64,000 bases of DNA. Origin: Pseudomaricurvus alkylphenolicus. Lineage in GTDB: Bacteria > Pseudomonadota > Gammaproteobacteria > Pseudomonadales > Cellvibrionaceae. The notes beneath the pieces are model-generated. The model was not told the DNA's origin and made no database searches. It saw only the letters and a program-made list of their open reading frames with translations. The translations under genes were made by a program, and so were the position numbers. Below, one piece after another: positions 29,661 to 45,363 of this stretch. The stretch covers positions 1 to 64,000 of the forward strand of contig NZ_JAAQPI010000009.1 in assembly GCF_011683955.1 (NCBI RefSeq), written 5' to 3'. Position 1 is the stretch's first letter, and each line of letters opens with the position of its first letter.

Positions 29661-30902
29661 TCAGCTGACAGCTCTATTCGTCAGCAACTGTTCGATTTTA
29701 TCCGCTTCGTATCCGAGGATGTCGGTTAATATGTAACGATTGTGTTCGCCGCTGCTTGGAGCGTTACCGGGCTCGGGCCAGTTTTCATCTACGAACTTGG
29801 TGGGCAGAGGCAGTAAATCCGCAACGTGCGTTGCGGCAGTCATCCAGGGCAGACGTTGGTGAAAGTGTGGATCGTTATCAAGCGTTTTCGGAGTATTTAC
29901 CGGTGCAATGGCGGTGTTGTGTTCCACGGCGAACTGCATCCACGCCTTCGTGCTGCGTTGCTGAAATTCGTCGCGCAGCAGTGCCTGCAGCTCTCGGTTA
30001 CCCACGGCATGGTCGCCATAGCGGTTGCCGGGCCAGCGTTCAAACCATTCGGGATGACCGACGCCATTGCAGAAGTTTCGCCAGAACTCCTGTTCGGATG
30101 CCATAAACAGAATGTGTCCATCGCTGGTCTGGTAATACTGATAGCGCACGCCGTTTTGCATTCCGGCGGTACCCGGCGCACGGCGCTCAAAGTTATCGCT
30201 GGCGTTGCCGGTGACTTCTGATTCGGGGCGTTGGTAGGCCTTCCAGGTGCCGGAACGCAGCCAGTCAAAGAAGGCGGCGGAGTCGGCCTGGGCGATATCG
30301 ATCATGGCCCCCTGACCCTGTTGCCTGGCCCGCAGCAAGGCGGCACAGATCGACATGGCGGCCATAAGTGGACCTGCGTGCATGCCCACGGAAGGGTGCT
30401 CTGGAATGTAGCAAAAACCGTCCGCATCGATCTGCGGTTGTACCAGGCCGGCCCAACTGTCAAACGCGAGGCCATGGGCCGGCAAATTCTGGTAGGGACC
30501 GCTCATTCCATAGCCAGACAAACAACAGAAAACCAATTCCGGTTTGATTTTGATTAGCTGCTTGTAGCCCAGGCCGCGTCGTTCGAGGGCACCCGGTCGC
30601 ATGGCTTCAATGACAACGTCGCTTTGCCGGACCAGGTCTTCAAATACTTTTTTGCCGGCGTGCTGGCGCAGATCCAGTTCAATACTCTTCTTGCCCCGTG
30701 ACACCTGATGGTGCATCAACGAAGCTCCTTCGATGATGGGCCAGGTCAGCTCCCGTACATAGTCACCACCGGGTGGTTCAATTTTGATAACTTCAGCGCC
30801 CAGATCAGCCAGGTACATGGCAGCGGCACCCGGTGCTAACAGTGAGCAGTCCAGGACTCGAATACCCTCAAGGGGCAGAGTGGGTGAGGTACTGGAGGAC
30901 AA
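29661..30902 (-). CDS. Class III CoA-transferase (CaiB/BaiF family)
   Basis: A 413-residue class III CoA-transferase. The N-terminal GIRVLDCSLLAPGAAAMYLADLGAEVIKIE motif (split: RVLDCS and LADLGAEVIKIE) and the RGKKSIELDLR segment are typical. The usual catalytic Asp, four residues before the conserved Gly of the DxxxG motif, is replaced: the segment reads EHPSVGMHAG with His at about residue 169. That may alter the mechanism or abolish transferase activity. It is co-directional with the VOC gene upstream (11-base gap) and nitroreductase downstream. Members swap CoA between acids such as carnitine, oxalate, bile acids and mesaconate. Confidence 0.88.
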   Translation of the reverse strand: MSSSTSPTLPLEGIRVLDCSLLAPGAAAMYLADLGAEVIKIEPPGGDYVRELTWPIIEGASLMHHQVSRGKKSIELDLRQHAGKKVFEDLVRQSDVVIEAMRPGALERRGLGYKQLIKIKPELVFCCLSGYGMSGPYQNLPAHGLAFDSWAGLVQPQIDADGFCYIPEHPSVGMHAGPLMAAMSICAALLRARQQGQGAMIDIAQADSAAFFDWLRSGTWKAYQRPESEVTGNASDNFERRAPGTAGMQNGVRYQYYQTSDGHILFMASEQEFWRNFCNGVGHPEWFERWPGNRYGDHAVGNRELQALLRDEFQQRSTKAWMQFAVEHNTAIAPVNTPKTLDNDPHFHQRLPWMTAATHVADLLPLPTKFVDENWPEPGNAPSSGEHNRYILTDILGYEADKIEQLLTNRAVS

Positions 30903-30913
30903 AGTCTGGCTCC

Positions 30914-31399
30914 TTATGAATGAATGGGATTACCCGGCATGTTGGTTGGGTCACCGGGCATCTGTAGCAGCTCCATACGCACGCCATCGGGGTCTTCGAT
31001 TCGAGCGACCTGGGATTGATACTGTTCGTTCTTGTGCCTATGGCCCTCAGGAACATTGCCTCCAAACGCTCGAACTCTATCCAGGGCGGCATCGAGGTTT
31101 TCGACGCGTATGCCAAAGTGGCTCAAGCCCAGTTGTTTGCGTATTTCGGGCAGTCGACAGTGTGGCGGTCGATCCTGCTGCTGCAACTGAATGCGCATGC
31201 CATCACGTTGCAGAAACAGCCCCTCGGTACGCAGCTCGTCCAGCCCGAGCTCGACGGCCGTGGGAGAACGGCCGGTGACGACAAGGTGGGAAATGGGCTC
31301 GAACCCCAGGGCTTCGATATAAAAACGACGGGAGATGTCGATATCGCTGACCATAAGGGCAACAAAGGAAATGTATTGAATAGGATCGGTACTGGACAC
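30914..31399 (-). CDS. VOC-superfamily glyoxalase/dioxygenase-like protein
   Basis: A 161-residue VOC protein made of two beta-alpha-beta-beta-beta units: ISFVALMVSDIDISRRFYIEALGF and GLSHFGIRVENLDAALDRVRAFGG are the halves (each shown by its opening strand and helix). The C-terminal DPDGVRMELLQMPG carries the metal-ligand Glu. I choose a GTG start at 31399 because an AGGAG site lies 6-7 bases upstream; the frame is also open to 31501. The family includes methylmalonyl-CoA epimerase, glyoxalase I and ring-cleaving dioxygenases. It heads the run with the CoA-transferase, but the reaction is unknown. Confidence 0.82.
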   Translation of the reverse strand: MSSTDPIQYISFVALMVSDIDISRRFYIEALGFEPISHLVVTGRSPTAVELGLDELRTEGLFLQRDGMRIQLQQQDRPPHCRLPEIRKQLGLSHFGIRVENLDAALDRVRAFGGNVPEGHRHKNEQYQSQVARIEDPDGVRMELLQMPGDPTNMPGNPIHS

Positions 31400-31579
31400 A
31401 ATAAGCTCCTGAAGGATAAAACCCCATGCTAGCCGATCGATACTGTCGATTTGAAAGCCAGAAGCAGGCTTTGCGGACAGAATTGATTCATCTGTTTCCA
31501 CCTGCGTCTGCCGGATTGAAGCTCATGAGGCAACGCCACTAGAATCTATTCATGCAAGACAATAAACGAGGGGATCTGA

Positions 31580-32479
31580 GTGAATATACTTCAAGGTAAA
31601 GTAGCCATAGTTACCGGTGCGGGAAAGGGAGTAGGGGCTGGTCACTGTAAACAACTGATCGAGCAGGGTGCCAAGGTGGTCGTCAATGATCTCAATCGAG
31701 AATCCGCCTTGTCGGTTGTAGAAGCGCTCAGGCAGGCCGGAGGTGATGTATTGTCCAGTCACCACGACATCAGCCAGCGAGCCGGATGTGAAGCACTGGT
31801 TGAACGCGCCATCAAAACCTTCGGACGCGTTGATATACTTATTAATAACGCCGGTATCGTTCGCGACCGTACTTTGCTTAAAATGACCGATGAGGAATTT
31901 GAGCTGGTTTGGAAGGTACACGTAATGGGAACCTTCTGGTGCAGCCAGGCAGCCGCCAGAGCTATGGTGAAGCAGGGGCAAGGGGGTGTGATAATCAATA
32001 CCACCTCCGCAGCGCATTTCGGCAGTTTTGGTCAAACCAACTATGCTGCTGCTAAAGGCGCCATTGCTTCTATGACCTACACTTGGGCGATGGAGTTGGC
32101 CTCGAAAGGCATTCGCGTTAATGCCATTTCTCCGCTGGCGACAACCGATATGTCCGACACCTATAAAAATGCGGGGGATATGCCGTACTTTGATCCAGCG
32201 GCGAATGGCCCCTTTGTTTGCTGGCTGGCCAGTGATTCTGCCGACTACGTTAGTGGTCAGGTGTTTGGCACTGGCGGAGAACGGATAGCGTTGTTGCAAC
32301 ACCCTGGCTACGGTAAAACGGCTACGCGCCAAGACGGCTGGGATATGGCCAGTATTGATGATCATTTTCCATTGCTGTTTCGGGGGCAATTCGGTCCATT
32401 GGGGATGCTGGAGCAGCCCTATCCTTTTAACGATGGCGTGAAATCGAATTTCAAAAGCGACTCAATCGACAGCGAGTGA
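31580..32479 (+). CDS. Short-chain dehydrogenase/reductase (3-hydroxyacyl-CoA dehydrogenase-like)
   Basis: A 299-residue SDR starting with GTG at 31580. The cofactor motif TGAGKGVGAG is at about residues 12-21, NNAG at about 90, and the catalytic YxxxK appears as YAAAK at about 156-160 with the upstream TTSA serine. The VNDL strand after the motif suggests NAD preference. It resembles the dehydrogenase part of MFE-2/17-beta-HSD4 proteins, which oxidise 3-hydroxyacyl-CoAs after MaoC hydratases; MaoC genes follow at 33.5-35.0 kb. The C-terminus is ~50 residues longer than a minimal SDR. It ends 3 bases from the convergent crotonase. Confidence 0.9.
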   Translation: MNILQGKVAIVTGAGKGVGAGHCKQLIEQGAKVVVNDLNRESALSVVEALRQAGGDVLSSHHDISQRAGCEALVERAIKTFGRVDILINNAGIVRDRTLLKMTDEEFELVWKVHVMGTFWCSQAAARAMVKQGQGGVIINTTSAAHFGSFGQTNYAAAKGAIASMTYTWAMELASKGIRVNAISPLATTDMSDTYKNAGDMPYFDPAANGPFVCWLASDSADYVSGQVFGTGGERIALLQHPGYGKTATRQDGWDMASIDDHFPLLFRGQFGPLGMLEQPYPFNDGVKSNFKSDSIDSE

Positions 32480-32482
32480 ATG

Positions 32483-33262
32483 TCAGCTTGTCGCCCGCCG
32501 TTGAAGTAGAATCTGCGCGAATTTCTGTTCCAGTGCGTGGGCGTTTTCTATTGTGCCGTCCAAGGCGCCCGCGTTTATAGCTCGCTTGACCGAGGCGGTG
32601 AATTCGGTATCCGCTGGTAGCAGTTCTCTGCAGAACCCGATAACCGATTGAAGAAAATTGTCATCCCCAAAAACCTTTTCAACGAGACCCATCGACTCGG
32701 CCTCTTTGGGCGTGATGCTTGCGCCGCGCCAAAACAAAGACTTGGCGCGGGCGACACCTACCAGGCCGGGCAGTAACATGGTGCTGCCTAGTCCGGGCAT
32801 TACACCTATCTCCCGGAACGGCAGTTTCAACAGCGACGAACGCGATGCCAGCCTGATGTCAAAAGGCAGCGTCATGGTAACGCCGATGCCGACAGCGATA
32901 CCGTTAATAGCCGCGATGGTAGGTTTGGGGTAGTGGTACAACTCTGAGCAAAAGCCGGTCAGAAATTCCTCTGTACCGATGAGTGGTTCGTTCCCGGACT
33001 GAAACTCGTTAGCGGGCTGGCGAAGCCGTTGCAGACAGGCACTATCGGCGCCCGAGCAGAATGCGCGACCGCTACCGGTAACGACAATGGCTTTGATTTC
33101 ATCGTCCCGTTCGCAACGCCGGAAGACGTCCACCAGTTCGTTCCCCATGGTTGGCGTATAGGCGTTGAGACGATCCGGACGATTCAATGTCACAACGGCC
33201 ATATTGTCACTATAGTGCAGTTCGATGCAGGTGTATTGATTCGATGAATCCATTGTACTCAT
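32483..33262 (-). CDS. Enoyl-CoA hydratase/isomerase (crotonase family)
   Basis: A 259-residue crotonase with oxyanion-hole segments FCSGADSACL (about residue 72) and INGIAVGIGVTMTL (about residue 112). The TPTMGNELVDVF helix near the start is typical. The usual first catalytic Glu region reads PFREIGVMPGLGSTMLL, as in many hydratase/isomerase members acting on branched or bulky substrates. It is a single minus-strand gene between plus-strand SDR and MaoC genes, divergent from the MaoC gene across 217 bases. Confidence 0.9.
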   Translation of the reverse strand: MSTMDSSNQYTCIELHYSDNMAVVTLNRPDRLNAYTPTMGNELVDVFRRCERDDEIKAIVVTGSGRAFCSGADSACLQRLRQPANEFQSGNEPLIGTEEFLTGFCSELYHYPKPTIAAINGIAVGIGVTMTLPFDIRLASRSSLLKLPFREIGVMPGLGSTMLLPGLVGVARAKSLFWRGASITPKEAESMGLVEKVFGDDNFLQSVIGFCRELLPADTEFTASVKRAINAGALDGTIENAHALEQKFAQILLQRRATS

Positions 33263-33479
33263 AGCTATTTACCTTCAGAAGTTAGTAACTGAAGACAGAA
33301 TACGATTTCTGAACGGGATATTTCGGTAGCACGCGTATGCCTGCAGGCCAGATTGATATCTGCGTGCCCACAGCGGTTGAGGTCTCTCTTATTCAGAATT
33401 GCTTTTCGGGTTACTATCGGCTTCAGTATCCCGCCGCTACAGAATGCCCATTTTTCTTTGATTAACTTGGAGAGATGTT

Positions 33480-33971
33480 GTGACTATCAGAGAAACATCA
33501 AATGTCATCCCGGAAGTGGACTTTCGGGACATTGACGGCCTCAACCAATTTGTTGGCAGAGCCTGGGGAGAGTACTCCGGCGAGCTGACGGTCACCCAGG
33601 AGATGATCGATCAGTTTGCAGCGCTCAGCGGAGATCACCAGTGGATTCACGTGGACGTCGAACGAGCGGCGCGCGAGAGTCCTTTTGGGGCAACCATTGC
33701 CCAGGGCTTTTTACTGTTGTGTTTACTGCCCAGGGTCCGCCCGCCCGCCAATCTGGTTATTGCAGGCCATCAGCGGGTTCTGAACTATGGCGGAGAAACC
33801 TTGCGGTTTTTGTCACCGATGATCGTTAATGAGCGGCTTCGAGCCCGTGAACGCACTGTTAGTGTTCAAAAGCACAGCAAGGGCACCCTGGTAACGACAG
33901 AGATTCAGATGCAGTCAGTCAATAATGAGGCTGTTGTTCTGGTGTACCGGCTACAGCTACTTTATTGCTAG
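33480..33971 (+). CDS. MaoC-type (R)-specific enoyl-CoA hydratase, NodN-like
   Basis: A 163-residue hot-dog hydratase starting with GTG at 33480 behind a GGAGAG site. The hydratase-2 motif is complete: ALSGDHQWIHVDVERA around residues 44-59 with the catalytic Asp and His, followed by ESPFGATIAQGFLLL. This pattern matches the NodN/MaoC group. It would hydrate a trans-2-enoyl-CoA to the (R)-3-hydroxy ester. It leads a tight run with the split MaoC-like pair. Possible substrates include mesaconyl-CoA (from the operon at 38.9-44.3 kb) or a steroid or branched acyl-CoA. Confidence 0.9.
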   Translation: MTIRETSNVIPEVDFRDIDGLNQFVGRAWGEYSGELTVTQEMIDQFAALSGDHQWIHVDVERAARESPFGATIAQGFLLLCLLPRVRPPANLVIAGHQRVLNYGGETLRFLSPMIVNERLRARERTVSVQKHSKGTLVTTEIQMQSVNNEAVVLVYRLQLLYC

Positions 33972-35108: not shown

Positions 35109-35801
35109 ATGTCAGCAGTCGAATCTGTCAGGCCAAAGCTTGGTGTCATAGGTGGATCGGGAGATCTGGGTTCAGGTCTTGTAAAGCAGTGGTTGATGTC
35201 GGGTTACCGAGTGATTATCGGCTCTCGTTCCCTGGAAAAAGCGCAACTGGTGAGAAGCAATATTCTGGAAGAGCTTGGGGACAGTTCACTTGCTGATAAT
35301 CTCTTCGCTGAGGTCAATGCCGATGCCGCGCGCCAAGCTGATATTGCGGTGCTGACGGTACCCTTTAGCCACCATCGCAGTACGCTGGAATCCCTTCGCG
35401 ATGCCCTGCAAGGGAAAATTCTCGTGGACGTCACAGTACCCTTGAACCCCCCTGCGGTCACCAAAGTGCAACTGCCGGAGGAGGGGGCGGCCGGGCAGAT
35501 TGCCCAGAATCTATTGGGAAAGGGTACCCGTGTGGTGTCGGCCTTTCAAAACGTTGCTGCGGTGCATTTACACCGGGGATTGACGGCGGACGATCGCCAT
35601 AAATGCGATGTGCTGGTCTGTGGTGATGACCCCGCCGCGCGGGCGGCGGTGGTCACATTGGCCAATGATGTCGGTTTGAAAGGCATCGAAGCGGGAGGTA
35701 TCGCCAATGCTGCCGCCGCGGAGGCTATGACGTCTTTGTTGATATTTATCAACAAACACCACAAATGTCACTCAGGTATTCGCATCACGGGCATGGATTG
35801 A
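35109..35801 (+). CDS. npdG: NADPH:F420 oxidoreductase
   Basis: A 230-residue protein with an N-terminal Rossmann motif, GVIGGSGDLGSGL, and the IIGSRS NADP-phosphate segment. The RQADIAVLTVPFSHH and VVSAFQNVAAVHL segments and the final GGIANAAAAEAMTSLL match the F420-dependent NADP reductase family. It moves hydride between NADPH and F420, giving the reduced F420 that luciferase-like enzymes such as the one at 6885 need. Its stop overlaps the cofC ATG in a TGATG junction, so the two are probably translationally coupled. Confidence 0.93.
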   Translation: MSAVESVRPKLGVIGGSGDLGSGLVKQWLMSGYRVIIGSRSLEKAQLVRSNILEELGDSSLADNLFAEVNADAARQADIAVLTVPFSHHRSTLESLRDALQGKILVDVTVPLNPPAVTKVQLPEEGAAGQIAQNLLGKGTRVVSAFQNVAAVHLHRGLTADDRHKCDVLVCGDDPAARAAVVTLANDVGLKGIEAGGIANAAAAEAMTSLLIFINKHHKCHSGIRITGMD

Positions 35802-36544
35802 TGTTCAACCGTCCCCTGCACCTGGCGGCCGTGGTGCCTCTAAACCGACAAGATCAGGCAAAGTCGCGATTGTCTCCGCAGCTCAGTCCGCCCTGGCGAC
35901 AGAAGTTGTTTCGCGCCATGAGTCTCGACGTTCTTTCTGTACTGAATTGTCACCCGGCAATCACAGACTCCTGGGTGATATCCCAAGATGAATTGAATAT
36001 GGCCCTGGCCGATAGGATGGGCGCTCAATTCTTGAGGCAGCCGGATGATGAGAGAGGCTTGTCCAGGGCATTGCAGTCAGCCATGCATCAACTGCGACAC
36101 CGTCAATACGATGGATTGGTGGTTGTGCACGGTGATCTGCCACGTATTTCGGATCATGCCCTGTCGAGTTTTTTGGAGCAAATTCTGCTGCAAAAGGGTA
36201 AGGGTATGGTCATTGCCACTGATAAGCATGGCCTCGGCACCAATGCGGTCTTTTGTCCATTGCCCAGCAAGTTCCGGTTTGCCTACGGTTCCGACAGTTG
36301 CCATCGTCATGTGGCCGTGGCTCATGCGCTGGAGTTGGAATGTAAAGTGATGAACATCGATGCCCTGGCCCAGGATGTGGATGGGATCGACGATATCATT
36401 GCCTTGTTCGATTGTGCTTCTTACAGTCTGGGCAGGCATACGCGTGCGCTGCTACCTCGTCTGGCTGATGAAATTCGACCAGGATTAACAACTCATAAGA
36501 CTTCGAGACCTCAGTTATGTCCTCTCGACACGATCACCTGCTGA
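35801..36544 (+). CDS. cofC: 2-phospho-L-lactate guanylyltransferase (F420 biosynthesis)
   Basis: A 247-residue nucleotidyltransferase. The VVPLNRQDQAKSRLSPQLS start is the CofC signature (VPLN...AKSRL), and VVVHGDLPRIS and GLGTNAVFCPL are the nucleotide and substrate segments. It activates 2-phospho-L-lactate, 3-phosphoglycerate or phosphoenolpyruvate with GTP to make the side-chain donor for CofD. The ATG at 35801 overlaps the npdG stop. An ATG 12 codons earlier lies inside npdG. The gene's 3' end overlaps fbiC by 28 bases. The C-terminal ~35 residues are an extension beyond the usual fold. Confidence 0.9.
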   Translation: MFNRPLHLAAVVPLNRQDQAKSRLSPQLSPPWRQKLFRAMSLDVLSVLNCHPAITDSWVISQDELNMALADRMGAQFLRQPDDERGLSRALQSAMHQLRHRQYDGLVVVHGDLPRISDHALSSFLEQILLQKGKGMVIATDKHGLGTNAVFCPLPSKFRFAYGSDSCHRHVAVAHALELECKVMNIDALAQDVDGIDDIIALFDCASYSLGRHTRALLPRLADEIRPGLTTHKTSRPQLCPLDTITC

Positions 36545-38874
36545 ATATTGTTGGTGAAGGTGCTCAGCTTACCACCACCGACGCCAGGCAACTGGCGGAG
36601 TCATGTTCAACTCAGAATTTGATGGCAGCTGCCCGGCGACTAAGAGACGGCAAGTACGGCAAGCGTATCACCTATTCGCGCAAGGTGTTTATTCCCTTGA
36701 CTCAACTGTGCCGCAATCACTGCCATTACTGCACATTTGCTCAACCGCCAAAACAGGTCCCATCGCCGTACCTGGGGGTAGAGGAGGTGATGAAGCGGGT
36801 GCACGACGCCCAAAGCCAAGGCTGCAAAGAGGTGCTGCTGACGCTGGGTGAAAAGCCAGAAAAACGTTATCGCAGTGCGAAACAATGGTTGCGACGACAT
36901 GGCTTTGAAACCACTGTGGACTACCTGGCCAGCACAGCCGAGACGATTCTGCGAGACACCGGCCTGCTACCGCATATTAATGCCGGAACACTGACGATCG
37001 AGGAACTGGCGAAGCTTCGCAGGGTATCCGCCTCTATGGGCATCATGCTGGAATCGGCCAGCGAAAGATTATGCGAAAAAGGTGGGGTTCACTACGGCTC
37101 TCCGGATAAACATCCAAAGGTAAGATTGAAAACCATTGAACAGGCAGGGCAGCTTCGCGTCCCACTGACGACCGGACTTCTTATCGGAATCGGAGAAACA
37201 CGCCAGGAACGAGTAGAGTCTCTCTTGCAACTGAGACAGTTGCATCGGCAATACGGACACTTGCAGGAAATCATTATTCAGAATTTTCGGGCCAAGCCGG
37301 ATACACGCATGTCGACGGCTCCGGAACCGGATCTGGAAGATCTGCAGTGGACGCTGGCGATGTGCCGGTTAATATTTGGTGCCGATATGAACATTCAGGT
37401 ACCCCCCAATCTGAATGAGGGACTGTGCCAGCCCTTACTTGACGCAGGCATCAACGATTGGGGTGGGATCTCCCCGGTGACGCCGGACTATGTCAACCCG
37501 GAGGCTCCGTGGCCCGGGATTCAGCGATTGGCCGCACTGACAGCCCGTGCCGGTAAACAATTGCGTGAACGATTGACCATCTATCCGGAATACGCACTCA
37601 ATGCAACCAAGTGGCTGGACTCAGCATTGCAGCCAAGCGTGTTGCGTCTGCTTGATGGGCAGGGACTGGCTCGCTCAGATAACTGGCTGCCCGGAACCTC
37701 TTCGCCTCCGGCGCTGACCAACCGGGTGCCGCTCTGGCTACACGCCAGGGTGGAGCCCAGAGTGGAGGATGCTGTTAAACGAGCGTGCGCCGGAATGCGG
37801 TTGGATGAAGAAGAGATTGCGTTTCTCTTTTCCTGCCGTGGAGAAGACCTGGAATACCTGTGTCGCCAGGCTGATAAATTGCGCGAGCGCCATTGCGGTA
37901 ACACCATCACTTATGTCGTAAATCGCAATATCAACTACACCAATATCTGTTACTTTAAATGTCAATTCTGTGCCTTCTCTAAAGGCAAACTCAGTGAAAA
38001 CCTGCGCGGACGACCCTATCAACTGGAGCTGTCTAGCATCGAAGAGCGCGTTCGTGAAGCCTGTCAGCGAGGGGCGACAGAGGTTTGCCTGCAAGGGGGC
38101 ATACACCCCGAGTTCACCGGACAGACTTATCTGGACATTCTGGCTGCAGCCAGACGTGCCAGTTCGAACGTCCATATCCACGCGTTTTCCCCACTTGAAG
38201 TGTGGCAGGGCGCAAAAACCTTGAGTCTGGAATTGGAGCCCTTTCTCTGCGAGCTTAAGTCAGCAGGGTTGAATTCCATGCCCGGTACGGCGGCGGAAAT
38301 TCTGGCGGATGAGGTGCGGCAGCAATTGTGCCCGGACAAGATCAACACTGAACAATGGCTTCAGGTGATGGGGAAGGCTCATAAGGTGGGGCTGCCGACC
38401 ACGGCGACCATTATGTTCGGGCATATCGATCAGTATAAACACTGGGCCCGGCATCTGTTGGCGATAAGGGATCTACAGGAGCGCAGCGGCGGTTTCACAG
38501 AATTTGTACCTCTGCCATTCGTCAGCGAACAAACGCCCCTTTACCTGAAGAGCCGTTGTCGACCGGGCCCCACCTTCGAAGAGACGCTGCTAGTCCACGC
38601 CGTAGCGCGCTTGGTGCTTAATCCCCTCATCACCAATATTCAGACGAGTTGGGTGAAAATGGGATTGCAAGGCGCCAAAGCCTGCCTGGAGGCAGGTGCC
38701 AATGATCTTGGGGGAACCCTGATGAACGAGAGCATCACACGAGCGGCCGGGGCTGTTCATGGCCAGGAGGTATCACCACGGCTAATGCAGCAGACCATCC
38801 GTTCCTGTGTGGGGCGTTTACCGCAACAGAGGAACACTTTATACCAGCCGACAACTGACCGCGCTGGCGGCTAA
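36517..38874 (+). CDS. fbiC: Bifunctional FO synthase, CofG-CofH fusion (F420 biosynthesis)
   Basis: A 785-residue fusion of two radical-SAM enzymes. The CofG-like half has its [4Fe-4S] motif C65-x3-C69-x2-C72 (CRNHCHYCTF). The CofH-like half has C478-x3-C482-x2-C485 (CYFKCQFCAF). Each is followed by the family's own segments (LTLGEKPEKRY and TEVCLQGGIHPEFTG). Together they join tyrosine and a pyrimidine intermediate of flavin synthesis to give FO, the F420 chromophore. The single-chain form is known from actinobacteria and some proteobacteria. The start overlaps cofC by 28 bases. Its TAA overlaps the TAG of the convergent lyase gene. cofD and cofE, needed to finish F420, are not in the window. 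Confidence 0.95.
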   Translation: MSSRHDHLLNIVGEGAQLTTTDARQLAESCSTQNLMAAARRLRDGKYGKRITYSRKVFIPLTQLCRNHCHYCTFAQPPKQVPSPYLGVEEVMKRVHDAQSQGCKEVLLTLGEKPEKRYRSAKQWLRRHGFETTVDYLASTAETILRDTGLLPHINAGTLTIEELAKLRRVSASMGIMLESASERLCEKGGVHYGSPDKHPKVRLKTIEQAGQLRVPLTTGLLIGIGETRQERVESLLQLRQLHRQYGHLQEIIIQNFRAKPDTRMSTAPEPDLEDLQWTLAMCRLIFGADMNIQVPPNLNEGLCQPLLDAGINDWGGISPVTPDYVNPEAPWPGIQRLAALTARAGKQLRERLTIYPEYALNATKWLDSALQPSVLRLLDGQGLARSDNWLPGTSSPPALTNRVPLWLHARVEPRVEDAVKRACAGMRLDEEEIAFLFSCRGEDLEYLCRQADKLRERHCGNTITYVVNRNINYTNICYFKCQFCAFSKGKLSENLRGRPYQLELSSIEERVREACQRGATEVCLQGGIHPEFTGQTYLDILAAARRASSNVHIHAFSPLEVWQGAKTLSLELEPFLCELKSAGLNSMPGTAAEILADEVRQQLCPDKINTEQWLQVMGKAHKVGLPTTATIMFGHIDQYKHWARHLLAIRDLQERSGGFTEFVPLPFVSEQTPLYLKSRCRPGPTFEETLLVHAVARLVLNPLITNIQTSWVKMGLQGAKACLEAGANDLGGTLMNESITRAAGAVHGQEVSPRLMQQTIRSCVGRLPQQRNTLYQPTTDRAGG

Positions 38875-39749
38875 CGCTTTTGCAGTAGCCGCCTTGCCCG
38901 TTCCACAACGGGCAGATCGATCATTTGACCCTTATATTCAAATACCCCAAGGTGTTGATTGTCAAGGTTTTCAAATCTACTGACCAGCTCCAGGGCGCAG
39001 CGCAGTTGCTCTGCTGTGGGCTGAAAAACATCATTAACGATTTCGATCTGCCTGGGATGAATGCAAAAGGCTCCGGCAAACCCCATGGATTTTGCCTGTT
39101 GAATTTGCGTTCGAAAGGACTCCGTTTGATCAATATTGGCGATGCTGCCTGGAAATCCGTAGGCGGGCAGTCCTGCTGACCGGGCCGCAAATACAAGGTT
39201 CTGGCAGGGGGAGAAAAGGTTTTCAGGGGTGGGCTCGAAGCCGCCATCCAAGGCAAGATCTTCACTGCCCAAGGCCATCGCTATATTTCGGGGGGAGGCC
39301 AGGCAAATGGATTCCGTCTGTTTCAATCCGGTCATGGTCTCTACCAGGGGCAAGATGCCGACGCTGCCGGCGGGGAGTTTGCGCTTGAGTTCCCAACGCG
39401 TGATGACTTCATCCAACAGTCGAAGGTGATCGGCGCCCATGACCTTAGGGATACATACGGCTCTGATGCCGGGAACCATGACCGCCTCCAGGTCCAATAG
39501 ACAAAGTTCCAGCTCCCGGTTCAGGCGCACGATCACTTCCATATTGGCGTCGTTGAGAAGTTCGATGCTACGAGCTACAGACGCCCTGGTTTCATCTTTT
39601 TGACGCGGGGCAATACTGTCTTCGAGGTCCAAAATAATGGCTCCCGCCGAACGGGTGTGGGCAGTGGTCACAAATCGTCGATTGTTGGCAGGTATAAATA
39701 GAACAGAGTGCCAGCTTGCCGCAGGAGGGCTGTCAATTTTGTCAGTCAC
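38871..39749 (-). CDS. CitE-like HpcH/HpaI-family CoA-ester lyase
   Basis: A 292-residue member of the CitE/HpcH-HpaI family. The metal and substrate segments are SVLFIPANNRRF (start), AIILDLEDSIAP (about residue 43) and MALGSEDLALDGG (about residue 160), with a C-terminal CIHPRQIEIVN. Such enzymes cleave citryl-, malyl-, methylmalyl- or citramalyl-CoA. It is the last gene of the glutamate mutase operon, 9 bases after the CoA-transferase. A cleavage of beta-methylmalyl-CoA to glyoxylate and propionyl-CoA, or of citramalyl-CoA to pyruvate and acetyl-CoA, would follow from hydration of mesaconyl-CoA. The two cannot be told apart here. It ends overlapping fbiC. Confidence 0.9.
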   Translation of the reverse strand: MTDKIDSPPAASWHSVLFIPANNRRFVTTAHTRSAGAIILDLEDSIAPRQKDETRASVARSIELLNDANMEVIVRLNRELELCLLDLEAVMVPGIRAVCIPKVMGADHLRLLDEVITRWELKRKLPAGSVGILPLVETMTGLKQTESICLASPRNIAMALGSEDLALDGGFEPTPENLFSPCQNLVFAARSAGLPAYGFPGSIANIDQTESFRTQIQQAKSMGFAGAFCIHPRQIEIVNDVFQPTAEQLRCALELVSRFENLDNQHLGVFEYKGQMIDLPVVERARRLLQKR

Positions 39750-39758
39750 TGTTTCCTC

Positions 39759-40961
39759 TCATTCTACAGTTTCGGTGGCGACGGAAGCGCTAAACTCTCT
39801 GCGGATCTTTCGAGAGTGTTCTCCTACTTTGGGGACTCTTGCACAGTTTCCTCCATCCCGGGGTTGTGCATCAACTTTGTCGCTAAACTGTACTGGCGAG
39901 GCGACAAGGTTGACGGAACCACCTTCGGGGAGTGTGACTCTGCGGCGTTTTAATTGCGGGTGTCGAATAACCCCATCGGGCGTGTTGACCGCACCAAAGG
40001 CAATATCGGCTTCGCGCAGCAGGGATTCCATAGCGCTCCGGGAATGTGAAGAAAACACCGCCTTGATAAAGGTATCGAGCTCAATGCGATGCTTCACCCT
40101 GGTATTGTTATCGCGAAAGTGCGCGTCCGTCGCCAATTCGGGCTGTAACAGTACCCGTTCGCAGAAGCGGACCCATTCCCGTTCATTTTGAATGGATATG
40201 GCCAGGGTCTCCCCGTCGGCGGTTCTATAGCCGCCATAGGGCGCAATTGAGGGGTGGTGCATGCCGACCCGTTTAGGGGCGCCTTTGCCGTATTGGGTGT
40301 GTAACAGCGGTACGGTCATCCAGTCGGCGGCGGTGTCGAACAATGAAATCTTTACCCCTGTCCCACGACCGGTTTTTTCCCGTTGCAGCAGTGCCTGCTG
40401 GATACCGATCAGGGCATTCATACCGGCACCTATGTCGCAGAGTGATACACCAATGCGTCCGTAGGCATGGGGTGAGCCACTCACGGCAACCAGTCCGGTT
40501 TCGCACTGGACCAGAAAATCATAGGCTTTCATATCGCGGTAGCGGCCACTTTCACCATAGCCGCTTATATCGCAGGTAATCAGCCGTGGATGGCGTTGCC
40601 TCAGCGCTGTGGAGCCAAATCCGGCTCGCTCGGCCGCCCCCGGCGCAAGGTTCTGGATAAATACATCGGCTTGGGAGACTATGCGCTGCAGCAAGTCTGC
40701 GTCTTGCGGATTCTTGATGTCAAGACACAGTGATTCCTTGCTGTGGTTAGCCCAAACAAAGTAGGACGATTCGCCCTTGGCGGCATCGTCGTAGCTTCTG
40801 GCAAAATCGCCTTCTCTGCGCTCGATCTTAATGACTCGGGCACCGCCTTCGGCCAGTCGGCAGGAACAAAGAGGGGCGGCGACGGCTTGTTCCAGAGTCA
40901 CCACCAATAATCCGCTGAAAGGGCCGGAGGTCGCTGTGCCAGTGTTCTGTTCAGTGAGCAT
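39759..40961 (-). CDS. Class III CoA-transferase, candidate mesaconate CoA-transferase
   Basis: A 400-residue class III CoA-transferase beginning MLTEQNTGTATSG at 40961; an earlier start at 41045 would lie inside the ammonia-lyase gene. LLVVTLEQAVAAPLCSCRLAEGGARVIKIERREGDF is the N-terminal CoA-binding stretch (landmark ARVIKIE). The catalytic Asp is present at about D176 in SLCDIGAGMNAL. It sits directly downstream of methylaspartate ammonia-lyase, overlapping it by 11 bases, so mesaconate is the most likely CoA acceptor, with succinyl-CoA or acetyl-CoA as possible donor. In haloarchaea and in the 3-hydroxypropionate bicycle, related proteins act on mesaconate or mesaconyl-CoA. The substrate here is inferred. 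Confidence 0.88.
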   Translation of the reverse strand: MLTEQNTGTATSGPFSGLLVVTLEQAVAAPLCSCRLAEGGARVIKIERREGDFARSYDDAAKGESSYFVWANHSKESLCLDIKNPQDADLLQRIVSQADVFIQNLAPGAAERAGFGSTALRQRHPRLITCDISGYGESGRYRDMKAYDFLVQCETGLVAVSGSPHAYGRIGVSLCDIGAGMNALIGIQQALLQREKTGRGTGVKISLFDTAADWMTVPLLHTQYGKGAPKRVGMHHPSIAPYGGYRTADGETLAISIQNEREWVRFCERVLLQPELATDAHFRDNNTRVKHRIELDTFIKAVFSSHSRSAMESLLREADIAFGAVNTPDGVIRHPQLKRRRVTLPEGGSVNLVASPVQFSDKVDAQPRDGGNCARVPKVGEHSRKIRREFSASVATETVE

Positions 40962-42255
40962 GAAAGTGCCCCGGATTCTGGTGTTCAATGGAAGGGAATA
41001 AAGGTGTGGAGGCGGCAAACTGAGCAATGGCGCGCTGCATTTCATTGTTTACAACGTTCATGCCTTCGTCAAAACCCATTCCGGGCTTGATCAGCAGGCG
41101 TTCGGGTCGCGCGGCCAGTGCCACGTGTACGCAAGTTCTGGCGGATAGATCGGTTTCGTTGCAGGTACCTCCCTGATAGGCTTCAACGGTATTCTGCTGG
41201 CAGTAGCCAATGGCTTCCACCACATTATGAATGCTGCCGAGATCCGGCGTTTTTATCTGAACCATGTGGCAGCAATCAGCATCGGCGAAGTCCCTGATGT
41301 CTTGCAAGGTATTGCACCATTCGTCAGCCACAAGTTTGGCCGGGGAGCTGATGGCATTCAGGTGTTCCTTGATCCCGGCCATAGCCTCCATTTGTTCGAG
41401 TTTTCCGCCAGCATCGACGGGTCCTTCAATGTAGAGCTTCAAGTCGCCGGTCAAATCCTGCAATTCAGCGATGTACTCCGCCACTCGTTTGTGGTCATGA
41501 TCAAATACCAGTCCCAGCGTGCCGTAAACATCAAGGTGCAAGTCGGGTTGGTAATTGGGGTAGTCCTGACGGCCGTCGTTGCCCAATTGCCCGATTCGTT
41601 CAGTTAGCCACTGTACATAATCCCGCAACTTTTCACCGTGACGACCAAGCTTTGAGGGACTATTGATCAGGCCGTGGGGCAAGACATCGACTTTTTTCAA
41701 AATCATTTTGTCGGCACCCAGGTAACGATCATCGCCGCTCTGGCCAAACATCGGTACCGGTTGTGGGATTCTGGGCAGCTTATACTCCTGGCACAGCACC
41801 GCTGCCTTTAGCTGACGCTTTGCCAGGGCGGTGGCCTCCAGCAGCGCTTGGGACACACCATAACGAATGGCCGTGTGTAGCGGCTGACCTTCAATTTTGA
41901 GATTGTCAAAAAAGCGCGCATTGGGCACAAAGGCGTCAACATTCAAGCCCTCCAGCAAAGGCCTGAGGTACTTCTGCAGAAAGGGGATATAGTTTTGAGC
42001 GGTAAATAGTGGGTCTCTTCCACCGGCACCGGAATACTGTACGGCGGCGCAGTCCCCCACGGCAACGCTGCCGTCGTCCAGTTGCAGAAGGATGGAGACG
42101 CACTCGCCCGCCTGGCGAATGGCTTGAAAGCCCTGGGTGTGGGCGTCGCCACGATAGACGAATCCGTCCAGCTGAGCACCCTGTTTAATCGCGTGCTGAT
42201 CGTCAAAATAGAAGGCCGAGTAGCCACTGACAAACAGTGCCTGAACAATCTTCAT
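40951..42255 (-). CDS. Methylaspartate ammonia-lyase
   Basis: A 434-residue enolase-superfamily lyase that removes ammonia from (2S,3S)-3-methylaspartate to give mesaconate. All key residues known from the Citrobacter enzyme are visible: H194 (VLPHGLIN), metal ligands D242 (LDVYGTLG), E277 (YIEGPVD) and D311 (VADEWCNT), and general base K335 (VQIKTPDLG). The N-terminus SAFYFDDQ is also standard. It is 21 bases downstream of glutamate mutase E and overlaps the CoA-transferase by 11 bases. The C-terminus is about 20 residues longer than typical. Activity is very likely. Confidence 0.96.
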   Translation of the reverse strand: MKIVQALFVSGYSAFYFDDQHAIKQGAQLDGFVYRGDAHTQGFQAIRQAGECVSILLQLDDGSVAVGDCAAVQYSGAGGRDPLFTAQNYIPFLQKYLRPLLEGLNVDAFVPNARFFDNLKIEGQPLHTAIRYGVSQALLEATALAKRQLKAAVLCQEYKLPRIPQPVPMFGQSGDDRYLGADKMILKKVDVLPHGLINSPSKLGRHGEKLRDYVQWLTERIGQLGNDGRQDYPNYQPDLHLDVYGTLGLVFDHDHKRVAEYIAELQDLTGDLKLYIEGPVDAGGKLEQMEAMAGIKEHLNAISSPAKLVADEWCNTLQDIRDFADADCCHMVQIKTPDLGSIHNVVEAIGYCQQNTVEAYQGGTCNETDLSARTCVHVALAARPERLLIKPGMGFDEGMNVVNNEMQRAIAQFAASTPLFPSIEHQNPGHFHAH

Positions 42256-42276
42256 GGGGGGGTAACCTCGGATTTA

Positions 42277-43755
42277 TCAAAGACCATGTATCGGGGAAAC
42301 AGTGTTTCGTCTCTGCGGACGGCCGATCAGAGTACTGCGGGAAACGGCGTTAACGTCATCGACCACCATATGAAACGACGCTTCCCGTTTCTCTTGCCGA
42401 GCCCGTTCGGCGATTTTGTCGCGATGGAAGGTCAGTACATCATCGGGAAGCGGAACAGAACCAGGATCCAGTAACCGAATGGCGCCGTCGTTATCGCGTA
42501 CGGGCATCAGAACACCGGCGTTGCAGTCCGCCGGAGCAAAGGGAATATCCAGGGCGCCAGCGGCAAAGGCGCGTACCGTTCCGAGAGCAATATCACCCCT
42601 ACCGAGGTTCAGTACCTGATCAAGCACAGCGCGAACCTCCCGCTTGATGATTTCCACTTCCCGCTCCATAGCCTCAGTAGTGGGGAAATGCTGTTCGTGT
42701 ACCATATTGATGGTCTGCCGTGTGGCTTCAAGACCATGGGTGTTGGCCTCCTTGGTGGGAACGCCACAAGCTTCGTGAGGCGTCTTCACAATTATTTTTG
42801 TGGCTCCGGCAATGGCGGCAGCGGTGGCACCCCAGCAGATGACCGAGTAGGCCTTGGATTCCTCTTGCGGGAATCCGCCCATCCACTGGTGAAACACGGT
42901 ACTCAACTCGTAGTCGTTAAATCCCGCCGCCTGGAAGACTTCATCACCCAGTTCCCGCAGCGATTTAATGGCGGCAACATCCTGAATAAGGTTGCCACCT
43001 TGACCATAGCCAAGGGTGATGCATTTGACGCCTTGCTCCAGAGCCAGCAACCCTTCAATCAGCATGATGCAATGAGAAACGAATGGCGGCACCAGGGTGC
43101 CGGAGAGAGGGCCGAAGGGTTCTCGATTGATGCGAATACCTTCTTCCTCGTATTTCCCCACCAGACGATCACAGTATTGCCAGTGGCGAATGGAAGATTC
43201 CAGTCGAACCCGTTTGGCGTAGGGGATATTGTAAGAAATGCCCCCGCCCTCATAACTGGTATAGCCTGCTGCCAGGGTAATCTCACTCAGCAGTCGCGCA
43301 TCCGGCGTCCCGTGACGAACCTGTACCGGTTTGTTGAGGGCGTTAACCACTTGGCGACAGCCCTTGGGGCCGTGGTTAACCGCAGGAAAACCGTTTAGCA
43401 ATGATGAGCCTGCCTGCAGGGATTTGGTGATGCCGCTACCCGCTTCGTCGTAGCGATTCAAGCGGGTATAGGCATCGATGGTGGTGGGCAGCAAATCGCA
43501 GGAAGACTCCAGGTGCTGCAGCAAGGCGATTTGCTCATGCAATAACGCCACACCCGCTCGCGGCTGCAACAGGGTTTTCCCTGATTGGTCCGCCTGACGG
43601 AGTACTGATGAAAACCGCTTGCTGTCGGGCAGGGCGTGCTGAAATTTCACACCTTCGGAAAAATCCACCTCTTTACCGGTGGGCCAGGACTGCAATACTT
43701 GCCGACGTTCCTGTTCAAACTCCCGTTCGGAGAGTCTCTGGTTATTCAGTTCCAC
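42277..43755 (-). CDS. glmE: Glutamate mutase, epsilon (E) subunit
   Basis: A 492-residue TIM-barrel subunit of adenosylcobalamin-dependent glutamate mutase, which converts L-glutamate to (2S,3S)-3-methylaspartate. Substrate-binding landmarks match the Clostridium enzyme: R66 in QPRAG, Arg in YTRLNRYDE (about 98-101), Arg in VRHGTPDARLL (about 147), Glu in SYEGGG (about 169) and Tyr in ISYNIPY (about 175). The match to clostridial numbering supports the GTG start at 43755, which has an AGG site; the frame is open further to 43839 into glmS. It lies 17 bases after glmS with no reactivase (glmL) gene between. Confidence 0.95.
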   Translation of the reverse strand: MELNNQRLSEREFEQERRQVLQSWPTGKEVDFSEGVKFQHALPDSKRFSSVLRQADQSGKTLLQPRAGVALLHEQIALLQHLESSCDLLPTTIDAYTRLNRYDEAGSGITKSLQAGSSLLNGFPAVNHGPKGCRQVVNALNKPVQVRHGTPDARLLSEITLAAGYTSYEGGGISYNIPYAKRVRLESSIRHWQYCDRLVGKYEEEGIRINREPFGPLSGTLVPPFVSHCIMLIEGLLALEQGVKCITLGYGQGGNLIQDVAAIKSLRELGDEVFQAAGFNDYELSTVFHQWMGGFPQEESKAYSVICWGATAAAIAGATKIIVKTPHEACGVPTKEANTHGLEATRQTINMVHEQHFPTTEAMEREVEIIKREVRAVLDQVLNLGRGDIALGTVRAFAAGALDIPFAPADCNAGVLMPVRDNDGAIRLLDPGSVPLPDDVLTFHRDKIAERARQEKREASFHMVVDDVNAVSRSTLIGRPQRRNTVSPIHGL

Positions 43756-43772
43756 GATAATGCCTGCCCTGC

Positions 43773-44273
43773 CTACGCCCTTGCCGCCATATCCAACACG
43801 CCATGTTCCCGATGACCGGCCACCAGCCATTGATTCCACTGCGGCTGGCGTCGCTGATGAATGTCCATCCGCAGCAACTTCGCCACGTCATGCAAATCAA
43901 TGCCGGGTTGAAAAACGCGGTCGTAACCCATGCCGGCAAACAGACGTTGCACTTCGGCAAAGGGGCGCTTGCCAATCACCAGATTGCCACCCACATACAA
44001 GATAATCTCCGCCAAGCCTCGTTCCATGCATCTCTCTCGCAGTCCGGCGCAATCGATTTCACCGTGCCCATAAATAGACGACACCAAAATCGCCTCAGCA
44101 TTGTGTTCAATGGCGGCGTCGATAAACTCGTCCTGACTGACCATAACCCCCAGATTGATAACCTGAAACGACAACTGACTGAGCACACTCATAATGATCT
44201 TGTTACCGACGGCATGGCAGTCGGCACCGATCACGCCAAGAATGACCGTAGGTTCGGAGGTGGATTGCTGCAT
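43773..44273 (-). CDS. glmS: Glutamate mutase, sigma (S) cobalamin-binding subunit
   Basis: A 166-residue Rossmann-like B12 domain. The cobalamin signature D-x-H-x-x-G appears as D18-C-H20-A-V-G23, then ILVSSIYGHGEID and ILYVGGNLVIGKRPF carry the SxL and GG motifs that hold the nucleotide tail. It binds adenosylcobalamin base-off/His-on and docks on GlmE. It is the first gene of the minus-strand operon, 160 bases from the divergent LysR gene. It is about 30 residues longer than the clostridial protein, at its C-terminus. Confidence 0.95.
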   Translation of the reverse strand: MQQSTSEPTVILGVIGADCHAVGNKIIMSVLSQLSFQVINLGVMVSQDEFIDAAIEHNAEAILVSSIYGHGEIDCAGLRERCMERGLAEIILYVGGNLVIGKRPFAEVQRLFAGMGYDRVFQPGIDLHDVAKLLRMDIHQRRQPQWNQWLVAGHREHGVLDMAARA

Positions 44274-44433
44274 GGTGTTTATCCCTTGAGTGAGAAACAG
44301 TGGTTGAGGTCTGGTATGGCGAGATTATTAGATAAGAAAGATTTACATACAATCACAAATACATAACAATAACTTAAGTGTTGAGATCCAAGTCCAACCA
44401 CCGATTAACAGCCGGGTAATCACAGAGCTTCTT
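44274..44433. promoter_or_regulatory. Divergent promoter region between glmS and LysR gene
   Basis: This 160-base gap contains an AT-rich core at about 44325-44385, with TTACATAC and AATACATAAC flanking ATCACA. LysR-type regulators bind such divergent regions at T-N11-A-type sites. The stretch is a reasonable place for the operator, but I cannot define exact sites. No cobalamin-riboswitch-like folding or B12 box is visible. Confidence 0.4.
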
Positions 44434-45363
44434 ATGAAAGATCCCCTTCGTCATGCGTCTCTCAAGCAACTGAAAATTTTCGCCATCGCGGTAGAACAGC
44501 AAAGTTTTGCCCGTGCGGCGGAAATCCTGCATTTGTCGCAACCGGCGGTGTCCATGCAGATGAGCCGGCTGGCTGAAGGCGTGGGCCTGGAGCTGTTTGA
44601 AAAGAGTGGCCGCAATCAGCGGGTCACCCGAGCCGGTGAGATACTCTATCCCTACGTTAAACAGGTCACTCAGACGTTACGGGAGGCCGGTGAGGAGCTC
44701 GATGCACTCAAGGGCGCACGACACGGAAAAATCAAGGTGGCTATGGTAACCACTTCGCGCTATTTTGCGCCTAAGTTGGTGGCACGTTTCTGCGAGCTGA
44801 ACCCGGACATAGAGATCGATTTCACCATAGCCAATCGCCAAACCGTGATTGAAAAGCTGGAAAACAATCAAATTGATCTCGCCATTATGGGTCGCCCACC
44901 CTCACGTTTGGGTGTCGTGGCGGAGGCCTTTGCCGAGCATCCCTACGTTATCATTGCAGCGCCGGATTACCCTTTGGTGGGCAAAAGGCGCTTCTCTGCT
45001 CAAAAGTTGGCGGGGGAGACCTTTTTGGCCAGGGAGGCCGGATCGGGCACCCGTATGCTGATGGAGCACTTCTTCGCAGAAAACGGTATTGAGGTGCCGG
45101 TGCTGCAAGAGGTGCCCAGCAATGAATCCATCAAACAGGCAGTCATGGCTGGCATGGGTTTGGCGCTGATTTCGAAGCATACCATCGGCTTGGAGTATCA
45201 AACCGGTAATATCGCTATTTTAAATGTCAGAGACATGCCGATTCTGCGCACCTGGTATGTGCTGCACCTGGAGGGTAAATCCGTTAACCCAATCATCAGC
45301 GCATTTAAGGCCTTTATGCTGGAGCAAGCTCCCGGGTTTATCAGCGATCTTTTCGGAAAATAG
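44434..45363 (+). CDS. LysR-family transcriptional regulator (CbbR-like)
   Basis: A 309-residue LysR regulator. The N-terminal winged helix (ASLKQLKIFAIAVEQQSFARAAEILHLSQPAVSMQM; landmark LSQPAVSMQM near residue 45) is canonical. The effector domain (GKIKVAMVTTSRYFAPKLVARF and GSGTRMLMEHFF) resembles CbbR/RbcR proteins, which sense small phosphorylated or organic metabolites. It is transcribed divergently from glmS-glmE and is the likely regulator of that five-gene operon, with perhaps a pathway intermediate as effector. That control relation is inferred from position. Confidence 0.92.
   Translation: MKDPLRHASLKQLKIFAIAVEQQSFARAAEILHLSQPAVSMQMSRLAEGVGLELFEKSGRNQRVTRAGEILYPYVKQVTQTLREAGEELDALKGARHGKIKVAMVTTSRYFAPKLVARFCELNPDIEIDFTIANRQTVIEKLENNQIDLAIMGRPPSRLGVVAEAFAEHPYVIIAAPDYPLVGKRRFSAQKLAGETFLAREAGSGTRMLMEHFFAENGIEVPVLQEVPSNESIKQAVMAGMGLALISKHTIGLEYQTGNIAILNVRDMPILRTWYVLHLEGKSVNPIISAFKAFMLEQAPGFISDLFGK

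Follow-up and report, generated by a model that had tools for sequence, protein, structure and literature searches.

An operon of Pseudomaricurvus alkylphenolicus that probably cleaves glutamate to pyruvate and acetyl-CoA via (S)-citramalate

Results

The stretch of DNA analyzed here (the window; 64,000 nucleotides from Pseudomaricurvus alkylphenolicus, positions 1 to 64,000 of contig NZ_JAAQPI010000009.1) carries on its minus strand an operon of five tightly packed genes for the glutamate mutase subunits GlmS and GlmE, methylaspartate ammonia-lyase (Mal), a class III coenzyme A (CoA)-transferase and a CitE-like lyase, from which a LysR-type regulator gene diverges. The operon probably encodes a CoA-linked methylaspartate pathway in which glutamate is cleaved to pyruvate and acetyl-CoA via (S)-citramalate. 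An earlier note, made from the sequence alone, had described five minus-strand genes and a divergent regulator, all of which were found where it had placed them, and among its alternatives was glutamate catabolism to pyruvate plus acetyl-CoA, the reading which now has the best support. In the proposed route, GlmSE would convert glutamate to 3-methylaspartate and Mal would convert the latter to mesaconate and ammonia. A class I (iron-sulfur) fumarase, encoded on contig C69 of the window genome, would hydrate free mesaconate to (S)-citramalate, the CoA-transferase would transfer CoA, presumably from succinyl-CoA, to (S)-citramalate, and the lyase would split (S)-citramalyl-CoA into acetyl-CoA and pyruvate. 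The net reaction would be the conversion of glutamate and succinyl-CoA to pyruvate, acetyl-CoA, ammonia and succinate, with no loss of CO2.

The operon would make mesaconate, and its last two genes encode a CoA-transferase and a lyase, so that a water-adding step is lacking from it. Water could be added either before the CoA-transferase acts, by a fumarase using free mesaconate, or afterwards, by a MaoC-type hydratase using mesaconyl-CoA, and the former order is favored because the gene linked to related operons encodes a class I fumarase. Class I fumarases that hydrate mesaconate have been published as mesaconases (PMC4682846), and mesaconate use through the sequence of mesaconase, citramalate CoA-transferase and citramalyl-CoA lyase is documented (PMC4682846, PMC12290011). 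Class I fumarase is encoded in all five genomes tested, that is, in the window genome and four related ones, and the single class I fumarase of the window genome shares 64 and 66% identity with its counterparts in the Rhizobium sullae and Ensifer adhaerens loci described below.

Searching a plasmid collection by tblastn with the CoA-transferase gave 162 records, three of which showed 60-80% identity. These three, from Rhizobium sullae (L090), Ensifer adhaerens (L091) and Gemmobacter fulvus (L092), encode transferases 63-64% identical to that of the window, possess the complete set of glmS, glmE, mal, transferase, lyase and LysR genes, and in each of them a class I fumarase gene adjoins the LysR gene. 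When Mal was used as the query, 17 records were obtained and 12 were fetched, the ones left out being three from E. coli and those from Peptoclostridium and Prevotella. The CoA-transferase gene follows mal in 9 of these 12 loci, and among the nine a lyase is present in eight and a class I fumarase lies near in seven; PF05681 and PF05683 were confirmed for the five plasmid fumarases tested. Hydratase queries (the MaoC protein of the window, the hydratase of the order relative L048 and that of Paraburkholderia) gave no match at 1e-10 in any of the nine, and no fumarase match was detected in L101 or L102 within the 17 kb seen. The three loci without a transferase belong to Halostagnicola (L097), Salmonella (L098, with a FumD-type fumarase) and Rhizobium sp. 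007 (L103). The seven fumarase loci are not independent of each other, as four from Mesorhizobium, Sinorhizobium and Microvirga share one layout and the R. sullae locus resembles that of E. adhaerens. Identity between the G. fulvus fumarase and its counterparts in R. sullae and E. adhaerens is only 30-31%, and the G. fulvus gene is oriented otherwise; it is therefore likely, as judged from these sequences, that fumarase joined the operon independently in at least two recruitments. Beside the G. fulvus operon lie the catabolic genes hutHGU, by which glutamate is formed from histidine, and within about 4 kb of the R. sullae and E. adhaerens operons there is a gene for glutamate dehydrogenase, an enzyme that can act either way. 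The four plasmid loci of shared layout (L095, L096, L099, L100) contain mal, CoA-transferase, lyase and class I fumarase genes without a mutase, the three annotated ones also contain genes for succinate-semialdehyde dehydrogenase and an aminotransferase, and these loci are likely a methylaspartate or related catabolic cluster.

When named genomes were scanned with Mal, 26 loci were obtained, and in four of these Mal is followed by a CoA-transferase and a lyase, namely in a Marinobacter antarcticus metagenome-assembled genome (MAG; L016), in IMCC1989 (L030), in Glaciecola sp. 33A (L033) and in a Rhodoferax MAG (L022), while a fifth locus (L038) displayed a lyase match only. The IMCC1989 locus has the layout of the window, including the LysR gene, and lacks a gene for GlmL, as does the window operon; a GlmL-type gene sits between glmS and glmE in Marinobacter and Rhodoferax, and the Glaciecola locus has no mutase. 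The window regulator is 56 and 51% identical to the regulators that adjoin the same genes in IMCC1989 and Marinobacter, respectively. Among the nine remaining loci for which downstream frames were listed, most have an AtuA/DUF1446-type frame after Mal, a name taken from PMC4682846 and the annotation of the Salmonella record, with L039, L034 and L025 muddled by overlapping frames of high GC content. In trees of 27 transferases, those of the window, Marinobacter, IMCC1989 and Glaciecola form one clade (support 99/99). The Rhodoferax transferase falls outside this clade together with that of L066 (99/100), so that this locus, in spite of its similar gene order, was not counted as the same set and may be an independent assembly. 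A GxHH motif is found in the transferases of the window, Marinobacter, IMCC1989, Glaciecola, R. sullae and G. fulvus; it was discarded as a mark of the clade since those of E. adhaerens, L048 and L094 read GLKH. At 1e-60, Mal was detected in one of the 369 genomes searched of the class, the window's own. At 1e-100, the CoA-transferase was detected in 22 of 390 genomes of the order, the window's own included, and in none of the other 21 did Mal lie within about 1.5 kb of the match.

With respect to the enzyme identities claimed in the earlier note, GlmS, GlmE and Mal exceed their curated NCBIfam cut-offs by a wide margin, and the CoA-transferase (best 1.3e-61) and the lyase (best 3.6e-49) are clear members of their superfamilies which stay below every equivalog cut-off. 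The key residues of mutase and Mal had been called intact, and they are indeed invariant or kept in the alignments: H194, D242, E277, D311 and K335 are among the invariant residues of six Mal rows (window and five relatives), and DCHAVG and GG are kept in four GlmS rows. We take these to be catalytic or cofactor positions. The CoA-transferase likewise retains the motif AYD, whose Asp is presumably catalytic. The five genes, said to be fused into one operon, do form one operon, in which no gene fusion occurs. CbbR, to which the regulator had been likened, is its top NCBIfam model, but the score does not reach the cut-off. The MaoC hydratase that had been assigned as a partner in a mesaconate to mesaconyl-CoA route is not supported: no MaoC gene is present in the operon or in the four related-genome loci read, and seven of the nine plasmid loci are accompanied by the fumarase.

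From its sequence relationships, the lyase is proposed to be a putative (S)-citramalyl-CoA lyase. A profile built from five lyases ranked the Pseudomonas aeruginosa entries 9nzb and 8khl first (204.9 and 204.5 bits), the latter bearing the title (S)-citramalyl-CoA lyase, followed by Yersinia RipC (176.8 bits), which scored above malyl-CoA lyases (166.2 and 165.6 bits). The cut-off of 375 bits of the RipC model NF038242 was not reached. The predicted structure of the lyase had a pLDDT (predicted local distance difference test) value of 88.9.

Discussion

The proposed hydration of free mesaconate has to be weighed against several points that speak against it or against the steps that would follow. 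The fumarase gene is not linked to the operon in the window genome, no fumarase match was found in the Marinobacter, IMCC1989, Glaciecola or Rhodoferax stretches, and class I fumarase doubles as an enzyme of the tricarboxylic acid cycle, for which reason its presence alone proves little. The glutamate dehydrogenase genes near the R. sullae and E. adhaerens operons would also fit a synthesis of glutamate that feeds the route. For the lyase, scores of the single sequence are nearly tied between citramalyl-CoA and malyl-CoA kinds, identity among the lyases of these operons is only 40-48%, and Foldseek was discarded as a classifier as it placed the citramalyl-CoA-binding CLYBL level with a malyl-CoA lyase (both 2.6e-22). 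In addition, the window genome has 29 MaoC matches, 26 of them over the cut-off, so that a hydratase for CoA esters is possible there, and CoA-transferases of the same family adjoin FAS1_DH/MaoC-type hydratases in L048, L051 and the Paraburkholderia locus L094. These last observations would suit a different order of steps with an equal net result, in which the CoA-transferase activates mesaconate, a MaoC-type hydratase encoded in the genome converts mesaconyl-C4-CoA to (S)-citramalyl-CoA and the lyase forms acetyl-CoA and pyruvate; the lyase of L048 is also 37% identical to that of the window and has the stretch GFPGSI in common with it. We consider this order unlikely, as no hydratase was found with the three queries in any of the nine plasmid loci whereas seven have the fumarase, and an L048-type hydratase was absent from the four related genomes tested and gave a match of only 28 bits in the window genome. 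Moreover, IMCC1989, with the same operon layout and a class I fumarase, has no PF01575 (MaoC) match and no match to the L048-type hydratase, a negative that rests on a draft genome whose completeness is not stated. The MaoC gene of the window itself was rejected as a pathway member, being distant from the operon, on the other strand and absent from the relatives.

The earlier note had suggested a bacterial methylaspartate cycle for acetate assimilation, in which mesaconyl-C1-CoA and beta-methylmalyl-CoA would lead to glyoxylate and propionyl-CoA and on to malate. Such a cycle would agree with the joint occurrence of GlmSE, Mal, a class III CoA-transferase and a lyase of the CitE superfamily and with glutamate dehydrogenase near two relatives. 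Crotonyl-CoA carboxylase/reductase over the cut-off was found in none of the five genomes, a result that fits the cycle and led to rejection of the ethylmalonyl-CoA pathway. However, the window genome encodes both an isocitrate lyase that scores 1026.5 bits with NF005074 (cut-off 446) and a malate synthase G that scores 1293.8 bits with NF002825 (cut-off 565). The two genes lie close together on contig C66 with a LysR-like frame between them, and a complete glyoxylate cycle was what the note itself had named as weakening the assimilation reading. All four related genomes match PF00463 and PF01274 over the cut-off; PF00463 also catches methylisocitrate lyases, and isocitrate lyase in these four is argued from long frames (449-541 amino acids) and not from a subfamily model. 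Genes for both cycles do occur in some haloarchaea (PMC8307300). The window transferase reached 146.3 of the 700 bits required by the model of the haloarchaeal mesaconate CoA-transferase Mct (NF041294), which was curated on haloarchaea, so that the miss weighs against membership and not against activity, and the lyase reached 45 of the 500 bits required by that of the haloarchaeal malyl-CoA/beta-methylmalyl-CoA lyase Mcl (NF041626). The GNxH loop of haloarchaeal Mct (PMC5592240) reads GMHH in the window transferase, and no candidate for a mesaconyl-CoA hydratase was found in the operons examined. Bacteria with close homologues of Mct and of the hydratase Mch are reported to lack Mal and glutamate mutase (PMC5592240). 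Because of the glyoxylate-cycle genes, the missed haloarchaeal models and the operons without hydratase, the methylaspartate cycle was rejected as the leading reading; it is unlikely in the window genome, and as an explanation of the operon we regard it as highly improbable. A salvage function, in which Mal, CoA-transferase and lyase degrade external methylaspartate, mesaconate or other branched C5 acids and the mutase works towards glutamate or is optional, would account for the mutase-free Mal-CoA-transferase loci (Glaciecola and six of the nine plasmid loci), one of which adjoins an ABC transporter annotated as being of the ectoine type, and the mutase equilibrium, which lies towards glutamate, would allow this direction (PMC8307300). 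It appears quite improbable, since the mutase genes lead the operon in the window, Marinobacter, IMCC1989, R. sullae, E. adhaerens and G. fulvus, and hut genes adjoin one of these operons, that of G. fulvus.

The gene set is thus best read as methylaspartate glutamate degradation, probably with a different ending. With the glutamate fermentation of Clostridium and of enterobacterial GlmSLE-Mal-FumD clusters (PMC4682846, PMC8473912) the citramalate route would share the mutase, Mal, a mesaconase of the class I fumarase type that forms (S)-citramalate, and end products that derive from the same two carbon fragments. In the fermentation, however, citramalate lyase cleaves free citramalate to acetate and pyruvate, whereas the window operon has a CoA-transferase and a stand-alone lyase by which acetyl-CoA would be kept; these two genes stand where enterobacterial clusters have an AtuA/DUF1446 gene after mal, and the window genome possesses a glyoxylate shunt besides. 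A citramalate lyase of the CitDEF type is not present in the operon, to which this result is confined, and the CitE-like lyase encoded there stays under the CitE cut-off. The proposed second half consists of the same three reactions as mesaconate use in Burkholderia xenovorans (PMC4682846), but unlike in that organism the CoA-transferase/lyase half forms one operon with the enzymes leading from glutamate to mesaconate. The haloarchaeal methylaspartate cycle (PMC5592240) has a mutase, Mal, a class III CoA-transferase and a CitE-superfamily lyase in common with the window; it uses Mct, two-domain Mch and Mcl families of its own, whereas the window has no Mch in the operon and its genome has isocitrate lyase. 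Shared with the itaconate/methylsuccinate cluster ict-ich-ccl (PMC12290011) would be a C5-dicarboxylate CoA-transferase followed by (S)-citramalyl-CoA lyase, and the P. aeruginosa transferase of that cluster also activates (S)-citramalate (PMC12290011). That system requires itaconyl-CoA hydratase and has neither mutase nor Mal, whereas the operons studied here lack such a hydratase: none is present in the window operon and, with the Pseudomonas Ich not used as a query, the weak L048-type match was what the genome gave. In the order relatives L048, L051, L062 and L066, related CoA-transferases adjoin hydratase, acyl-CoA dehydrogenase or MmgE/PrpD frames, and these clusters resemble the itaconate/methylsuccinate ones (PMC12290011).

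For enterobacterial clusters, what becomes of the citramalate made from glutamate has been called unclear (PMC4682846). The gene set, which occurs in both gamma- and alphaproteobacteria and is in part plasmid-borne, would finish citramalate cleavage via CoA esters and keep acetyl-CoA. If so, glutamate or histidine could yield pyruvate with no CO2 being lost, and clusters of Mal and CoA-transferase genes that may be mistaken for the methylaspartate cycle would have to be re-read. As glutamate mutase tolerates oxygen (PMC8473912), an aerobic use of the route is plausible. One may further speculate, with considerable doubt, that where a glutamate dehydrogenase gene is close to the set, as in R. 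sullae and E. adhaerens, the enzyme re-fixes the ammonia released by Mal on 2-oxoglutarate, making the route a nitrogen-neutral, carbon-conserving shunt from 2-oxoglutarate to acetyl-CoA and pyruvate which has spread on plasmids among aerobic proteobacteria; such a shunt would by-pass 2-oxoglutarate dehydrogenase and supply pyruvate for gluconeogenesis without malic enzyme or phosphoenolpyruvate carboxykinase. No published description of the five-gene set was found in the open-licence literature searched. A gene table of Neorhizobium galegae names neighboring loci as fumarate hydratase and methylaspartate ammonia-lyase, with no pathway proposed in the available part of that paper (PMC4417242).

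Features of the window and further loci

Table 1. Genes and intergenic region of the operon in the window, with the model scores of the encoded proteins (curated cut-offs in parentheses).
Feature	Position	Strand	Evidence
CitE-like lyase, 292 amino acids	38871..39749	-	TIGR01588 167.4 bits, RipC NF038242 140.6 bits, both under cut-off
Class III CoA-transferase	39759..40961	-	NF008511 208.9 bits, under cut-off
mal, methylaspartate ammonia-lyase, 434 amino acids	40951..42255	-	TIGR01502 529.8 bits (286.15)
glmE, glutamate mutase catalytic subunit	42277..43755	-	TIGR01503 747.9 bits (390.1); PF06368 690.6 bits
glmS, B12-binding subunit of glutamate (methylaspartate) mutase, 166 amino acids	43773..44273	-	NF002612 208.9 bits (110); TIGR01501 195.7 bits (135.8)
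Intergenic region between the divergent LysR gene and glmS	44274..44433	.	partial match to the IMCC1989 intergenic region
LysR regulator, CbbR-like, divergent from the operon	44434..45363	+	NF045990 296.5 bits, under cut-off (450)

The gene for the CoA-transferase, starting with ATG at 40961, overlaps mal by 11 bases and is separated from the lyase gene by a gap of 9 bases; the start of glmE is most likely the GTG at 43755. A comparison of the two intergenic sequences indicates that the block AACACTTAA and neighboring positions are shared with IMCC1989, and the region is predicted to be the probable regulator-binding and promoter region through which the LysR protein might control the operon.

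The lyase gene meets end to end, with stop codons overlapping by 4 bases, a group of F420 genes (35109-38874) that encodes a PF03807-type oxidoreductase, CofC (TIGR03552, 140.3 bits, cut-off 105) and a fused CofGH (NF006687, 1074.7 bits, cut-off 1018). Past these genes, about 4.9 kb from the operon and on the opposite strand, lies the MaoC gene (33480-33971, plus strand). It belongs to an acyl-CoA catabolic group separate from the operon (29661-33971), together with genes for a second class III CoA-transferase (PF02515, 278.8 bits), a glyoxalase-like protein and an enoyl-CoA hydratase.

In Glaciecola sp. 33A (L033, 8037-15273), the mutase-free genes for Mal, CoA-transferase and lyase have an isocitrate-lyase/PEP-mutase-like frame and a PrpE-like ligase downstream of them and a phytanoyl-CoA dioxygenase-like frame upstream (frame names read by eye); these neighbors perhaps point to a different source of methylaspartate. 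The window genome contains two further sets of mutase genes. In one (G000 contig C3, L088:5040-8535), GlmS-like and GlmE parts are joined in one frame of 656 amino acids (TIGR01503, 441.6 bits, over the cut-off) that adjoins an AMP-forming ligase, whose nearest model is an exosortase-associated ligase, under its cut-off. The other (G000 contig C45, L089:5713-10277) encodes an AMP-forming ligase besides a GlmS-like protein, a GlmE-like protein (377.2 bits, just under the cut-off) and a protein that matches MutL weakly (75.2 bits); an aminotransferase gene lies close by, and the set is possibly biosynthetic.

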